DNA of 64,000 bases from assembly GCF_000724625.1 (NCBI RefSeq), contig NZ_CP007139.1:4774001-4838000 (forward strand). Reading direction: 5' to 3'. This document shows, one piece after another, positions 1,023-6,526 of this stretch; position 1 is the first letter of the stretch; each line of letters opens with the position of its first letter. Source of the DNA: Fimbriimonas ginsengisoli Gsoil 348 (lineage in GTDB: Bacteria; Armatimonadota; Fimbriimonadia; Fimbriimonadales; Fimbriimonadaceae). A program made the position numbers and the translations under genes. The notes beneath the pieces were generated by a model. It was not told the origin of the DNA. It saw nothing but the letters and a program-made list of their open reading frames with translations, and did not search any database.

Positions 1023-1879
1023 AGCGAGTCACCGACCGGGCTATAGCTCCAGAGCAAACGTTGGCCAAGCTTGATAAGAAAGTCGTCCTTCTGCACCGAC
1101 ACTAAGTTTGTCATCCGAGTCGACTTTCGCACTCGCACCTCGTCGCCGCTTAGCAAGTGGAGCCGCGTCTGCCCGTCCGCGGAAAGCACCGCGTCGCCGT
1201 GACTCTGAACCTTTAGAACGATCTCCGATTCCGCCGCGAGCACAAGCGTTCGGGAGTTCAACGTATGGGGTGCGATCGCGGTGAGTACGAGTGCATGGAC
1301 CTTCGGGTCGAGAATCGGCCCGCCGGCGGAGAGGTTGTATGCGGTGGAACCGGTGGGAGTCGCGACGATGATGCCGTCCGCCGGATAGCTGGTAAGAACG
1401 TGCCCATCGACGGTGACCTGAAACGTCATCATCCGCGCCACGACCGCGCGCTGGAGCACCGTCTCGTTGAGCGCGCTAAGATGGGCCACCGTTTGGCCGG
1501 CACGCATCAACTCGGCGTCCAGCATCATTCGAGACTCAATGGAGCACCGCCCTTCCAAGAAGTCGGTCAGACACGACTCCAAGTACTCGTGCGTGCACTG
1601 CGTCACAAACCCGAACCGCCCGAAGTAGACGCCGAGGATCGGCGTTCCGAAATCGGCGCACAGGTGCACCGCCCGGATGAGCGTCCCGTCGCCACCAAAA
1701 GCGACGACGAGATCCGCCTCGCCGAATTCTGAATTGCGAACGACCGGCAGTTCTACGTGGCGCGCCGTGTCGCTATCGACCCATACATCGTTGCCGCGAG
1801 CACGCAACCATTTAGCCACCCCGACCGCCGCCTCAATAGCGTCCGGCCGGTAGGTGTTCGTCACCAAATGTACGCGCAC
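1019..1879 (-). CDS. nadK: NAD kinase
   Basis: Phosphorylates NAD+ to NADP+ using ATP or polyphosphate; cytosolic. Seen: GGDGT (62-66), NE motif (138-139) and the PTGSTAY block (174-181) that define the NAD kinase/diacylglycerol kinase fold. The 286-aa length is typical. GTG start overlaps the TAG stop of the upstream TPR gene by one base (TAGTG), and its own TGA stop overlaps the next gene's TTG start, so three genes form a tight transcription unit. Function is secure from motifs; the pairing with a peptide-transport ATPase has no obvious metabolic logic. Confidence 0.95.
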   Translation of the reverse strand: MRVHLVTNTYRPDAIEAAVGVAKWLRARGNDVWVDSDTARHVELPVVRNSEFGEADLVVAFGGDGTLIRAVHLCADFGTPILGVYFGRFGFVTQCTHEYLESCLTDFLEGRCSIESRMMLDAELMRAGQTVAHLSALNETVLQRAVVARMMTFQVTVDGHVLTSYPADGIIVATPTGSTAYNLSAGGPILDPKVHALVLTAIAPHTLNSRTLVLAAESEIVLKVQSHGDAVLSADGQTRLHLLSGDEVRVRKSTRMTNLVSVQKDDFLIKLGQRLLWSYSPVGDSL

Positions 1880-3321
1880 TAACCCGAAGACCTCATTCGT
1901 TCCAGATTGGCACGAATGTCGGGATCATCGGGGGCTATTTTCTGCGCCTTCTCCAAGATCTTGATCGCTTCGACCGGTTGCTTCATCCGTTCGAGCGTGA
2001 TCGCAAGATTATTGTATGCGGCGATGTAGTTCGGCTTTGCCTCGACGGCGGAGCGGAAGGCTGCCTCCGCTTGCGGAAGCTTGTTCGCCTTAAGATGGCA
2101 AAGCCCGATCCCGTTGAGCGCTTCGGGATTGTCTTTGTTGCCGGCCAAAATTTGCAAGTAGTGATATCGCGCCCCATCGACATCCCCTTGCTCCCATAAG
2201 GCGTTCGCAAGTTGAAGCCGGATCGCCGCCCTCGAAGGCTCGGCCCGGATTACTTCTTTCCATGCGGCGATCGCCTTAGCGGTTTGGCCCGCATTCGCCG
2301 CCGCCGAACCCAGGTTGACCTTGGCGGCGATGGAGGAGGGATTCAGACCCGACAGTTTGTCGAACAGCGTCGTCGCTTCTTCGAACTTGCCGCCTCGGAA
2401 CAGGAGCAGACCCAAGTTATTCAGCGCGTCGAGATCGTTCGGGCTGAGCTCCAGTACACGCCGGTACGCCTGCTCCGCTTCCGGCGTCTTCCCCATCGCG
2501 CCGCGAAGGACGGCCAGGTTGAACCAGAAAGTGGGGTTCTTCGCCTCGATCGAGCGGAGACTCTCGTAATACTTGAGCGCGTCCTCACGGCGTCCAGCGC
2601 GAGCGTACGCCTCGCCCAGCGCAAGCGCGACCGCCGAATCGCTGCCGTCGCCGAGGGCTTTCTCCAAATAGCCAAGCGCTTCAGGTTTTCGAAGCCTTGC
2701 GAGCGCCAGTCCCGCGTTTCGGGCGAAGGTTCGGTTATCCGGACGAAGCTCGGCCGCCTTGATGAATTCGGCGGCGGCGCGATCGTTCTCGTGCCGTGCC
2801 TCAAAGGCGACCCCCAGGTTGTTGTGCGTGAACGCATCGTCCGGTTTCAGGCGGGTGGCGGCCTGGAATTCGGAGACCGCCTGCGCGTACTGTTTTCGCG
2901 CCAGATAGATCGTGCCGGAGTTGTAGTGCGGCTCGAACATCCGCGGGGACAATTTGAGGATCGCCTGATACTTCTCCAGCGCCCGGTCCGGTTGCCGCGT
3001 GGCCAGGTACGCATTTCCGAGATTGTTCAGGACCTCGATATCCGAAGGATGCTGAGCAATCGCCTGTTCCAAGAGCGGAACCGCCTTTCCGGCTTCGTCC
3101 GTGCGGAGGTACAGGAAGCCGAGCCAGCTAAGGGCGTCGTAGCTGCGCGGAGACTCGGCGTGAAGCGCCTCGAACGCTTTGATCGCCTCGTCTTGCTTGC
3201 CGGCCTTGTACAGGGCGGCTGCGTCGGCAACCCGCTTTTCAAACGCGCGTTCGTCTTGGGCAAAAGAAAATCCTGCTACGGCAAAAACACAACAACAAAG
3301 GAGCGCTCGAAAGAGTCTCAT
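1879..3321 (-). CDS. Exported TPR-repeat protein
   Basis: Predicted secreted or periplasmic scaffold. Seen: a signal peptide (basic MRLFR followed by a Cys/Ala/Phe-rich core ending near FSFAQ), then almost entirely tetratricopeptide repeats, roughly a dozen 34-residue units with the usual Ala-8/Ala-20/Pro-32 pattern (for example repeats ending ...HPSDIEVLNNLGNAY). The ATG at 3321 is chosen over an in-frame GTG at 3330 because AAGGTG lies six bases upstream of the ATG. First gene of the TPR-nadK-ABC string. TPR arrays bind partner proteins; the partner is unknown, so no specific function is assigned. Confidence 0.85.
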   Translation of the reverse strand: MRLFRALLCCCVFAVAGFSFAQDERAFEKRVADAAALYKAGKQDEAIKAFEALHAESPRSYDALSWLGFLYLRTDEAGKAVPLLEQAIAQHPSDIEVLNNLGNAYLATRQPDRALEKYQAILKLSPRMFEPHYNSGTIYLARKQYAQAVSEFQAATRLKPDDAFTHNNLGVAFEARHENDRAAAEFIKAAELRPDNRTFARNAGLALARLRKPEALGYLEKALGDGSDSAVALALGEAYARAGRREDALKYYESLRSIEAKNPTFWFNLAVLRGAMGKTPEAEQAYRRVLELSPNDLDALNNLGLLLFRGGKFEEATTLFDKLSGLNPSSIAAKVNLGSAAANAGQTAKAIAAWKEVIRAEPSRAAIRLQLANALWEQGDVDGARYHYLQILAGNKDNPEALNGIGLCHLKANKLPQAEAAFRSAVEAKPNYIAAYNNLAITLERMKQPVEAIKILEKAQKIAPDDPDIRANLERMRSSG

Positions 3322-3415
3322 AGGGGGCACCTTAACTCTACGACGCCTGAGGGCCTGTAAGATTCCGACTTTCGCCCGTGCCCTAATAAATACCGACGCG
3401 AAGGAAGCTCTCGAC

Positions 3416-3661
3416 TTATTTCCGCAGGATAAGCCACAAAGAAACCGACGCCACCGCTCCCCAAAGCAAGACCAGTAAGGGCGGATAGCGAAGCACGCAA
3501 CGGGTATCTCGCTTGCCGTGCACCATTGCGAGGACGTAGAAAAGCGCGCAGCAACCCGCCGCGACCGGCAGGGTGAACCGCTGCGCGATCAGCGAAACCG
3601 TCGCGATCTTACAGAACTGGAAGGCAATCCCTTCGTACACTTCACCTTTCGTTTTTTCCAT
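3416..3661 (-). CDS. Small membrane protein, last gene of the radical SAM operon
   Basis: 81-residue hypothetical protein with two hydrophobic segments (about residues 28-47 and 61-79) joined by a basic loop (HGKRDTR). No family recognised. The ATG is preceded by only five bases after the TGA of the zinc-ribbon gene, which places it in the same operon as the radical SAM and Lgt-like genes. An N-terminally longer reading to 3739 exists in the same frame but would overlap the upstream gene extensively, so it was rejected. Confidence 0.6.
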   Translation of the reverse strand: MEKTKGEVYEGIAFQFCKIATVSLIAQRFTLPVAAGCCALFYVLAMVHGKRDTRCVLRYPPLLVLLWGAVASVSLWLILRK

Positions 3662-3666
3662 AAGCC

Positions 3667-3969
3667 TCAGGGGCGCTTCCACGCCAAGACGAAGAGCCAA
3701 GCTAGGAAGCCGAAGAACGCAACTCCGACTGCGCCCCACGCAAAAGCCTCCGTCTGAAAAGTGCGCTCACTCGATGCAACAACCATAAAGCATCCGCCGA
3801 TGAGGGCCGAAGGAATCCCGACGAGGATGAGCGCGATCAATGAAAATATTCGGGCCGCGACTCTCCACGGCGATCGGTAACGGTCATTTAGGCGGTGCCC
3901 GCAATTGGGACAGACCTCGTCGGTCACCAACAGGCTAGCCTTGCAGTTGGGACATCTTAAATCCGACAC
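3667..3969 (-). CDS. Zinc-ribbon membrane protein
   Basis: 100-residue protein. Seen: N-terminal double CPNC motif (residues 6-9 and 20-23) of a zinc ribbon, then two transmembrane segments. The GTG start at 3969 is chosen because the zinc ribbon begins immediately after it (MSDLRCPNC) and it overlaps the end of the Lgt-like gene by 13 bases; the longer frame upstream translates to low-complexity sequence inside lgt. It resembles the protein encoded at 4658-4987 in layout (ribbon plus two membrane helices). Role unknown; presumably a membrane partner in this operon. Confidence 0.65.
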   Translation of the reverse strand: MSDLRCPNCKASLLVTDEVCPNCGHRLNDRYRSPWRVAARIFSLIALILVGIPSALIGGCFMVVASSERTFQTEAFAWGAVGVAFFGFLAWLFVLAWKRP

Positions 3970-4679
3970 GCGATCGCCTCCCTCCTCCACCGCCAAAACA
4001 CCGCCGCCGCCACGCCTAAGACCAACTCCAGGCAGAACCACTGCATGGGCGAGAGGCCATAGACGAGGGTCTCCCGCCATCGGACGAACTCGAGGCCGAA
4101 GCGGGTAACTCCAAACGCCACCAAATAAGCCTTGAAAAGATCCCCTTCACGGGTGAGCCGAGGCCGAAGCCACAGCAGGAACCCGAAGAGGGAAACCGCA
4201 ACCGCCGCCGAATAAAGCTGCGCCGGATGCCGATACGCCCCATGTTGCCAAACCGCCCACGGCATATCGCACCGTTCGCCGTAGCAGCACCCGTTGAAAT
4301 AACACCCGAGCCGCCCCACCGCTTCCCCGGCGGGCAGGGCGAGGGCGAACAGGTCGCCCGTCGGACGCCGGATGCCGAGCCTCTTCTTCGCTACCACCAC
4401 CCCGATCCAACCAAAAATGACCCCGCCAAGCAACGCCCTCCCACCGTTTCGCGGATCCAGCGCCACCCCCATCGACACCCGCCAGGGCCACCCTTCGGCG
4501 ATAAGCTGAGTCAGTTTCGCACCAAGAATGCCGGCCGCGAAGCCGACCGCCACCACCGTCCAGATCCCCTCGGTCGACAAATTCTGCCGCCGCGCCGCCC
4601 ACAGGAAAACGAGGGCGCCGGTCAAGTAGGAGAGCCCGGTTAGGATCTCGCCCAGAGTCAACCGTTCCTCCTGAGCCAC
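3957..4679 (-). CDS. Lgt-like membrane enzyme (prolipoprotein diacylglyceryl transferase family)
   Basis: Family enzymes transfer diacylglycerol from phosphatidylglycerol to prolipoprotein Cys. Seen: about seven hydrophobic segments; the family core GRLGCYFNGCCYG (122-134, canonical form GRIGNFINGE), HPAQLY (151-156), and a RFGLEFVR block (193-200) matching the conserved Arg/Glu region. 240 aa is slightly short for Lgt. The core is divergent and contains three Cys, so it may be a specialised paralog and not the housekeeping Lgt. It overlaps both neighbours in an operon with a lipid-enzyme-like radical SAM protein, which suggests a shared glycerolipid substrate (inference). Confidence 0.75.
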   Translation of the reverse strand: MAQEERLTLGEILTGLSYLTGALVFLWAARRQNLSTEGIWTVVAVGFAAGILGAKLTQLIAEGWPWRVSMGVALDPRNGGRALLGGVIFGWIGVVVAKKRLGIRRPTGDLFALALPAGEAVGRLGCYFNGCCYGERCDMPWAVWQHGAYRHPAQLYSAAVAVSLFGFLLWLRPRLTREGDLFKAYLVAFGVTRFGLEFVRWRETLVYGLSPMQWFCLELVLGVAAAVFWRWRREAIACRI

Positions 4680-4987
4680 AGCCGCACCCCGATGCCGATC
4701 GCCACTAGCAAAGATGCTGCCGCCACTGCAAGAAAATCCCTAAAAAGCTCGGCGCCCCAATACTGAGTCTGACTTTTGTCGGCCAAGCCGTTAATCGCGC
4801 AGGATCCAAAGAAAGCGCTAATCCCGAGAAGCATGACGATCCATCCGACAAGGCAACCTCGACTGACGCTCGGATATCTCGGGTTTCCGCAGTTGGAACA
4901 ATAAGGCAGCATATTTTCACCAGCGCTGCAGTGAACACACTTCCACCCTTTGACCTCACCCTCTTCCGCTTCCGGTTGCTCGTCCAA
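4658..4987 (-). CDS. Zinc-ribbon membrane protein
   Basis: 109-residue protein. Seen: acidic N-terminus, a CxxC pair (residues 17 and 20) and a second CxxC pair (30 and 33) forming a zinc ribbon, then two transmembrane helices (about 45-63 and 86-105) ending in a basic tail. It starts four bases after the radical SAM stop codon and overlaps the Lgt-like gene by 22 bases, so it is co-transcribed with both. Architecture matches the gene at 3667-3969, although the sequences are not close. No known function. Confidence 0.7.
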   Translation of the reverse strand: MDEQPEAEEGEVKGWKCVHCSAGENMLPYCSNCGNPRYPSVSRGCLVGWIVMLLGISAFFGSCAINGLADKSQTQYWGAELFRDFLAVAAASLLVAIGIGVRLWLRRNG

Positions 4988-4990
4988 GAG

Positions 4991-6526
4991 TTACCTACCT
5001 TGCAAGACCGGCAGCGTCGACACTCGAGGCTTCGGAAAGTCATCCGCGTCCTCGAAAAGCCAACGCCAACAGAAAGAATGGCGCCGCGGATCTTCCTCGA
5101 AAGTCCCCACGTGGACGCAACACTGCCGAATTCGCGCTTCGTGGAAAGTGTTGGCGTCCATAAACTGCTTCACCGTAACCCGGAACGTTCGTTCCGCCAA
5201 CTTCTCCACCGTCTCGTTCGGCGAGCGAAGCAGCTCGGCGACCCCGGGAATGCAGTCGCATAGCGTAAAAATGTCCCGCGCCAAGCCGAGCGCGGTCACC
5301 TTCTGCTGCTCGGAGAACACCCGCTGTAAAGCTCCGCTCTGAACCAGACCCCGCACGGAATCGGAGGCCGACTCGAACGAAATCGTATTCGCCACCAGAT
5401 GGATCCACCGCTTCAGCTCGTCCCGGCCGACGAGCTTCGGCAACGAACGCCATCCCTTGCGGGTCTTCAGCAGGTAGGTGATGTCGCAGCAATCCTTATG
5501 CGAGCACGGCAGCGGCACGAAGTCTTGCCAGTCGACTTGCCCCCGCGTCTGCGCCCCCAGACGGCGCAGCACGCCCGTCGGCGTAACCCGGTCCTGAGGA
5601 TCGAAACCGGGGTTTCGGCCCGAGCCGAACATCGGCTGGATCGCCAGCCCGGCGCACCGAGGCGTGTTGAGCCCGGTCGTCAGCACCTCCCCCACCTCGT
5701 CGTCGTTCACCCCTTTGGCTACGGTCATCACGAGCGTCGTAAAGATCCCCGCCTCGTTCAAGCGGCAAAGGGCGAGCGGCTTCTCCTCGCTCAGGTCCTC
5801 GCCACGGAGCGCGAGGTGAGTGCTGGCCCGAAAGCCGTCGAACTGGAGGTACACCTCGACCCGGTCGCGATGTGACTGGAGGAACTTCAAGAAGCGATCG
5901 TCCCGAGCGATCCGCCGCCCGTTCGTATTCAGCATCACCCGGGTGAGGTTCCGCTCGAAAAGCCTCTCCAATAGCTCTTCGATGTCTCGCCGCACCGTCG
6001 GCTCGCCGCCCGAGACCATGACCACGCCCAGCTTTCCTTCTTCCCGCGCCAGCACCGTGTCCACCGTATGCAGCATCTCCGCGATGCTCGGCCGATCCGG
6101 CTGCGCAAGCGGCGTCCCCGGATCGTGCGCCGTGGCGTAACAGGTCGGACACCGGAAGTTACAGTGCTCCGTCACGTTGAGAAGCAGGATGCAAGTGTGC
6201 TGCCCGTGCGACGCGGGAAGGCCGTCTCGGTACCCGTCGGGAAAGCCGGCGAAATTGTCCGGACGGTCCGGTGTCACCGCCAAAGTAGGGGTGCTCCAGC
6301 CCGCGCGCGCCTGCCAGATCTCCGCATCCTCCTCGTAAAGGCTTTCCGTCTCCCCATGCGTCGGGCACCAGCGCCGCATCCAAATCTTGCCGTCGTGCGA
6401 AACGAGCATTCCGTCGACGAAAATCCCCTCCTCGTCGGACCTCCGTGGCCGGTCGGCAAAGCAGTGAGGACACACCGTCCGGGTGTACTCCTCGATCCGA
6501 TAAGGTCGCGCCGCCAGCCCTGCCAT
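4991..6526 (-). CDS. Radical SAM enzyme of the Tes/MJ0619-like type (candidate lipid cross-linking enzyme)
   Basis: 511 aa. Seen: N-terminal CPHC (19-22) with further Cys54, radical SAM cluster motif CNFRCPTC (C122, C126, C129), GGEP (173-176), a Cys cluster CSHKDCC (341-347), C423/C425, and a C-terminal CC...FC block (C469, C470, C486). Known: MJ0619 and archaeal tetraether synthase (Tes) share an N-terminal rubredoxin-like site, a radical SAM core and extra Cys-ligated 4Fe-4S clusters ending in a CCVH...FC block; bacterial relatives are linked to membrane-spanning lipids. Inference: this protein makes C-C bonds between lipid tails or methylates an unactivated carbon. First gene of a five-gene operon with an Lgt-like enzyme. 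Other possibility: a pterin methyltransferase-type enzyme like MJ0619 itself. Confidence 0.75.
   Translation of the reverse strand: MAGLAARPYRIEEYTRTVCPHCFADRPRRSDEEGIFVDGMLVSHDGKIWMRRWCPTHGETESLYEEDAEIWQARAGWSTPTLAVTPDRPDNFAGFPDGYRDGLPASHGQHTCILLLNVTEHCNFRCPTCYATAHDPGTPLAQPDRPSIAEMLHTVDTVLAREEGKLGVVMVSGGEPTVRRDIEELLERLFERNLTRVMLNTNGRRIARDDRFLKFLQSHRDRVEVYLQFDGFRASTHLALRGEDLSEEKPLALCRLNEAGIFTTLVMTVAKGVNDDEVGEVLTTGLNTPRCAGLAIQPMFGSGRNPGFDPQDRVTPTGVLRRLGAQTRGQVDWQDFVPLPCSHKDCCDITYLLKTRKGWRSLPKLVGRDELKRWIHLVANTISFESASDSVRGLVQSGALQRVFSEQQKVTALGLARDIFTLCDCIPGVAELLRSPNETVEKLAERTFRVTVKQFMDANTFHEARIRQCCVHVGTFEEDPRRHSFCWRWLFEDADDFPKPRVSTLPVLQGR

Follow-up and report, generated by a model that had tools for sequence, protein, structure and literature searches.

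The closest described counterpart of the enzyme examined here is Tes of M. jannaschii (MJ0619, also GDGT-MAS), in which a substrate carbon bonds to sulfur of an [Fe4S4] cluster; its Met439Ala variant is still active, and the roles of its remaining cofactors are not known (PMC9433317). Bacterial Tes homologues have been proposed, without proof, for the synthesis of branched glycerol dialkyl glycerol tetraethers (brGDGTs) (PMC8941075), and Mss and Ger are experimentally shown enzymes (PMC13274423, PMC11868695). Which bacteria weld or modify lipid tails, and with which enzymes, is the open question behind both brGDGT palaeothermometers and the "lipid divide". Here we describe a five-gene operon in Fimbriimonas ginsengisoli Gsoil 348, within a 64,000-nucleotide stretch of contig NZ_CP007139.1 (positions 4,774,001 to 4,838,000; hereafter the window), that joins a radical S-adenosylmethionine (SAM) enzyme of the Tes superfamily (rSAM) to LgtL, a paralogue of the prolipoprotein diacylglyceryl transferase Lgt. 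This set has no curated name and is a promising candidate for a novel mode of membrane-lipid modification; by a slight balance of probability, we read the module as a membrane-lipid-modifying set that combines radical chemistry on lipid tails by rSAM with phospholipid handling by LgtL. Our literature search, which did not take in the original Mss paper, returned no paper that links radical SAM to diacylglyceryl transferase and membrane lipids, and found no fatty acid data for Fimbriimonas. The operon runs on the minus strand in the order rSAM-zr109-lgtL-zrB-tm107 (window coordinates):

4991..6526, minus strand: rSAM, Tes-superfamily radical SAM enzyme, 511 amino acids (aa), identified from its open reading frame (ORF), Pfam, NCBIfam, PDB and structure comparison
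4658..4987, minus strand: zr109, 109 aa, TTG start; zinc ribbon and two transmembrane (TM)-like segments, G-S-C closing the first segment
3957..4679, minus strand: LgtL, 240 aa, paralogue of prolipoprotein diacylglyceryl transferase
3667..3969, minus strand: zrB, 100 aa, GTG start; zinc ribbon and two TM-like segments, G-G-C closing the first segment
3416..3661, minus strand: tm107, small membrane protein, 81 aa, of an uncurated family; two conserved Cys (FxFCK; R-x-C-x-LR)

Successive genes are spaced by +3, -22, -13 and +5 bases, bearing out the description, in an earlier note on this DNA, of five same-strand genes with overlaps or gaps of five bases or fewer. Two over-long ORFs, one of 137 aa for zrB that begins within lgtL and one of 107 aa for tm107 that begins within zrB, reduce to 100 and 81 aa at their likely starts. 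The same note had pointed to a radical SAM motif flanked by CPHC and CC...FC blocks and to three small membrane proteins, two of them with zinc ribbons. Both are present: rSAM carries CPHC...WCPTH, CNFRCPTC and QCCVH...SFC, while zr109, zrB and tm107 each have two TM-like segments, and the two zinc ribbons read CVHC..CSNC and CPNC..CPNC.

Sequence and fold comparisons both place rSAM in the Tes (MJ0619) superfamily. Pfam assigns it Radical_SAM and HMPTM zinc ribbon domains, and against the PDB it matches Tes (7TOL) over its full length (1.6e-39 in the single-sequence search, 1.1e-88 with a profile). Its AlphaFold model, with a mean predicted local distance difference test score (pLDDT) of 80.7, aligns with Tes (7TOM) at Z 42.7 and a root-mean-square deviation of 2.8 over 417 residues, including the C-terminal part, the runner-up fold being MoaA at Z 20.5. 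Trees and fold put it within the Tes/TrsS superfamily and not with peptide or cofactor maturases. It differs from Tes in its sequence (~26% identity in the structural alignment) and in its almost constant placement alongside LgtL in a bacterial operon. In the Fimbriimonas genome PF23545 matches the rSAM gene alone, and no second rSAM match was found at 1e-10.

The cofactor ligands of rSAM were mapped onto M. jannaschii Tes and compared across 37 close relatives (Armatimonadota groups I and II and relatives from other phyla). The rubredoxin-like site C19/C22/C54/H57 (Tes C9-C12-C33-H36) and the radical SAM (RS) cluster motif CX3CX2C (C122/C126/C129) are retained in every group compared, and the C-terminal [4Fe4S] cysteines are kept as C346/C469/C486 (Tes C338, C455 and C470, a ligand set inferred from conservation). 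The cysteines of all three sites are present in all 37 relatives, save one incomplete row at C470. The position of the labile Met439 of Tes is Lys453 in rSAM and Lys in 37/37 relatives, a replacement compatible with Tes chemistry because the Met439Ala variant of Tes is active and the substrate carbon sits on the cluster sulfur.

LgtL is a monophyletic paralogue of Lgt. It matches Pfam LGT at 1.7e-34 (119.7 bits) and the fold of Lgt 5azb at Z 18.4 (next fold, 7.0), and in a tree that set 37 LgtL sequences against 20 other Lgts, many from the same genomes, LgtL occupies one side of a branch supported at 99 by the Shimodaira-Hasegawa-like approximate likelihood ratio test (SH-aLRT). Like Lgt, it has the equivalents of R143, R239, E243, R246 and G154 (E. 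coli numbering), which are invariant across the 37 LgtL sequences and include the headgroup-binding (phosphatidylglycerol-binding) Arg143, Arg239 and Arg246, kept in 37/37. It departs from Lgt at H103 and N146, in missing the TIGR00544 cut-off (68 against 118.9) and in forming a separate clade alongside the housekeeping Lgt; the Asn146 position is Cys in 37/37 LgtL, and Cys too in the strain's own housekeeping enzyme. The earlier assignment to the Lgt family thus stands. The divergence it ascribed to the core does not, since the LgtL core (GRLGCYFNGCCYG) and that of the housekeeping Lgt (GRIGCFLNGCCYG) have GRxGC..GCC in common: we therefore rejected a divergent core as the mark of a special enzyme and locate the difference at His103. 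LgtL as a substitute for Lgt was likewise rejected, the best LGT match being a stronger, separate Lgt in 18/18 genomes searched.

The module extends far beyond this genome. Among the best 80 of 448 rSAM relatives recovered from a scan of ~85,000 species genomes, LgtL lies near rSAM in 74/80 loci and the tm107 family is present in 71/80, so that the neighbours, whose conservation the earlier note had left to a genome-neighbourhood search, are widely shared. Five of the six loci lacking LgtL are truncated at a contig end or come from short contigs (under ~5 kb); the sole clear exception (L149, 8001-9482), a relative of the LgtL-linked clade, has no LgtL within 8 kb and one Lgt match in its genome. 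Relatives occur in at least six phyla, namely Armatimonadota, Actinomycetota, Chloroflexota, Gemmatimonadota, Rhodothermota and Eremiobacterota/Vulcanimicrobiota, the actinomycetotal carriers being mainly Microbacterium and its kin, with Mycolicibacterium brisbanense as well. Across 291 Armatimonadota genomes, rSAM (of any of three groups) is present in 48, a strong LgtL match in 34 and both in 33 (Fisher p=1e-30, a value that overstates independence because the genomes are related). Gene order varies between groups, with LgtL either upstream or downstream of rSAM, which favours selection on the rSAM-LgtL pair over recent inheritance of one block, and the spread is patchy (11/20 same-genus genomes, counting the strain's own, and ~2 percent of sampled Actinomycetota). 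As negative controls, the fetched stretches of nine TrsS-family loci (Bacillota) and of seven Actinomycetota loci with Tes-like motifs (GCPxDCGxCPxH, CC..PFC) contained no Lgt homologue. The strength of the Tes and LGT matches, together with conservation across phyla, confirms that the operon is real and more than a chance arrangement. It points to a distinct Tes-like clade that has, in six or more bacterial phyla, an Lgt paralogue of its own, and cultured carriers such as Microbacterium and Knoellia make the question of tail modification directly testable.

Two further observations concern Actinomycetota. A separate rSAM group (L214, L217, L218 and L219; motifs PCCFPxC and CC..PFC) has no Lgt homologue nearby and may represent a bacterial Tes or Mss, and one genome (G661; loci L206 and L220) encodes both an LgtL-linked rSAM and an rSAM with Tes-like motifs.

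All module components besides rSAM and LgtL are membrane proteins. Members of the tm107 family (~100 aa, at a median of ~770 bases from rSAM) carry two conserved Cys, present in 69/71 and 70/71 cases, and match no Pfam or NCBIfam entry; membership in DUF4395 was not accepted, at an hhalign probability of 4 percent. The soluble part of the other small proteins differs, being a zinc ribbon in Armatimonadota and a different N-terminal stretch in Chloroflexota and in Actinomycetota; what they share is a Cys at the outer helix end. A G-x-C motif occurs in 19/25 Armatimonadota zinc-ribbon proteins versus 6/50 membrane proteins from the flanking genes of the retrieved loci, a small control set (p=5.6e-8). 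Iterated hidden Markov model searches found a fourth gene in 44/56 non-Armatimonadota loci, each copy carrying G-x-C in its last helix, a descriptive count since the motif was searched for only after being noticed. Basic residues precede the helix and few follow the Cys, and the sequence is consistent with an outward-facing Cys at about the position of a lipobox Cys; group II proteins retain the Cys, mostly without an exact G-x-C. At one locus (L077:10541-13247), a tandem array of ~6 zinc-ribbon/membrane paralogues of ~112-145 aa each lies between lgtL and tm107.

Homology, cofactor-ligand conservation, fold and co-conservation across phyla are the basis on which we favour lipid modification, and from them we infer a lipid substrate, tail coupling, an LgtL reaction and roles for the G-x-C cysteine and tm107. 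In this scheme, rSAM, peripheral on the cytosolic side, would take up membrane-lipid alkyl chains in a hydrophobic pocket, where the 5'-deoxyadenosyl radical would take hydrogen from a chain and the resulting carbon radical would be parked on the C-terminal [4Fe4S] cluster, as in Tes, before a new bond is made, most likely by carbon-carbon coupling of tails. Tes-type tail chemistry is suggested by the whole-length Tes match and the kept C-terminal cluster, and phospholipid handling by the kept headgroup Arg residues: LgtL may bind an anionic phospholipid (e.g. phosphatidylglycerol) and exchange or transfer its diacylglyceryl part, a possible second job for the Lgt fold. The G-x-C membrane proteins are candidate acceptors, from the position of the Cys, or docking partners, and tm107 could be a scaffold or a subunit delivering electrons or lipid. 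The earlier suggestion that the set builds or attaches an unusual lipid thus survives as lipid-directed function, which superfamily placement and conserved neighbours make the best reading; a specifically membrane-spanning product is not supported. Neither outcome that the note had named as refuting its view, an unrelated maturase clade for rSAM or neighbours confined to this genome, occurred.

Several results weigh against lipid modification. The NCBIfam scores of rSAM fall below the cut-offs both for Tes (189 bits against 450) and for TrsS (223 bits, its best NCBIfam score, against 490). The Tes [4Fe4S]-N cysteines C73/C77/C80 are all replaced in group I, to which the window's rSAM belongs and in which the His position is retained, and are also gone in the actinomycetotal, chloroflexotal, gemmatimonadotal and rhodothermotal relatives. 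Residues 380-438, the lipid-pocket region, are modelled at pLDDT <50, so that pocket conservation is not judgeable. In the tree, the LgtL-linked rSAMs fall outside Tes+TrsS, split from MjTes and TrsS by a 100/99 branch (SH-aLRT 94, unstarred, for the same split with more rows, the Actinomycetota group being added), and as TrsS is no nearer to rSAM than Tes is, some members of the superfamily may act on targets other than lipids. For LgtL, the proposed catalytic His103 is Leu in the window's protein and Leu/Ile/Val in 36/37; this position is Phe in the strain's housekeeping Lgt and is thus a weak discriminator. On cut-offs, cofactor set and tree position, filing rSAM directly as Tes or TrsS was rejected. 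TrsS, a radical SAM (seleno)protein, resembles rSAM in its conserved C-terminal cluster cysteines and N-terminal zinc ribbon, but retains [4Fe4S]-N and mostly Met, and has no Lgt homologue near the nine control loci. Membership in Tes proper, towards which the Tes/MJ0619-like label of the earlier note leaned, is not supported either, given two differing cofactor features and the Tes score, and the Tes and MJ0619 that the note listed separately are one protein (PMC9433317).

Cofactor sets thus vary by clade, a warning that not every Tes homologue is a tetraether synthase. A third Armatimonadota rSAM group (L068:8950-12096, L072:8742-11352 and L065:8392-11523) has the reverse of the window's pattern, with [4Fe4S]-N cysteines kept and C-terminal cluster cysteines lost; LgtL is still present at these loci, together with a PEMT/ICMT-like methyltransferase and a DUF4395 protein.

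Among the alternatives, the one that survives best, though we think it improbable at roughly one chance in five, is that rSAM modifies a side chain of a small membrane protein (tm107 or the G-x-C protein), which LgtL would then lipidate or chaperone. Radical SAM enzymes beside small ORFs are often maturases, and the partners here look substrate-like, being small, fast-changing, sometimes tandemly amplified (~6 in L077) and endowed with conserved Cys. Against this, the best relative of rSAM in both fold and sequence is a lipid enzyme, matched over the whole length; no Pfam SPASM match was obtained at E <=10, though HMMER filters drop weak matches, and no leader-like peptide was seen.

Less probable still is ordinary bacterial synthesis of membrane-spanning lipids of the Mss or bacterial-Tes kind (iso-diabolic-type tails), with LgtL and the small proteins as accessories. 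Bacterial Tes homologues have been proposed for such synthesis (PMC8941075), Mss models are reported to have the catalytic architecture of Tes (PMC13274423), and Mss homologues are reported in Armatimonadota metagenome-assembled genomes (PMC11868695). However, the separate Actinomycetota group has Tes-like motifs but no LgtL, and Thermotoga maritima, whose phylum is reported to produce lipids of this type, lacks an HMPTM zinc ribbon match. The DUF2229 domain, which we take to be a marker of Ger-like ester reductases, was not found in the Fimbriimonas genome, a further point against this route; for the same reason an ester rather than an ether linkage would be expected, if the product is a lipid.

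A more specific form of lipid modification, which we hold to be about as doubtful, has LgtL placing diacylglyceryl on the outer-end G-x-C cysteine of polytopic proteins, and the Tes-like enzyme welding the anchor tails together or to a lipid in the other leaflet. If true, these proteins would be non-classical lipoproteins, widely distributed among bacteria, whose lipid anchor is macrocyclic or spans the membrane.

In a last alternative, rSAM would form C-S bonds, its C-terminal cluster (Lys for Met) giving sulfur to a lipid tail or joining a tail to a partner-protein cysteine. In its favour, sulfur-inserting radical SAM enzymes (LipA, BioB) typically have auxiliary clusters with non-cysteine ligands. 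This is the least probable alternative: Tes does pass through a C-S intermediate (PMC9433317) and the partners bear conserved Cys, but Lys453 is aligned with Met439 and not shown to bind the cluster, and no sulfur carrier gene was seen in the module.

Promoter and terminator scans of the operon gave no signal above chance. A tetratricopeptide (TPR)-repeat protein encoded on the same strand at window positions 1879-3330, 85 bases 3' of tm107, did not appear as a conserved module member.

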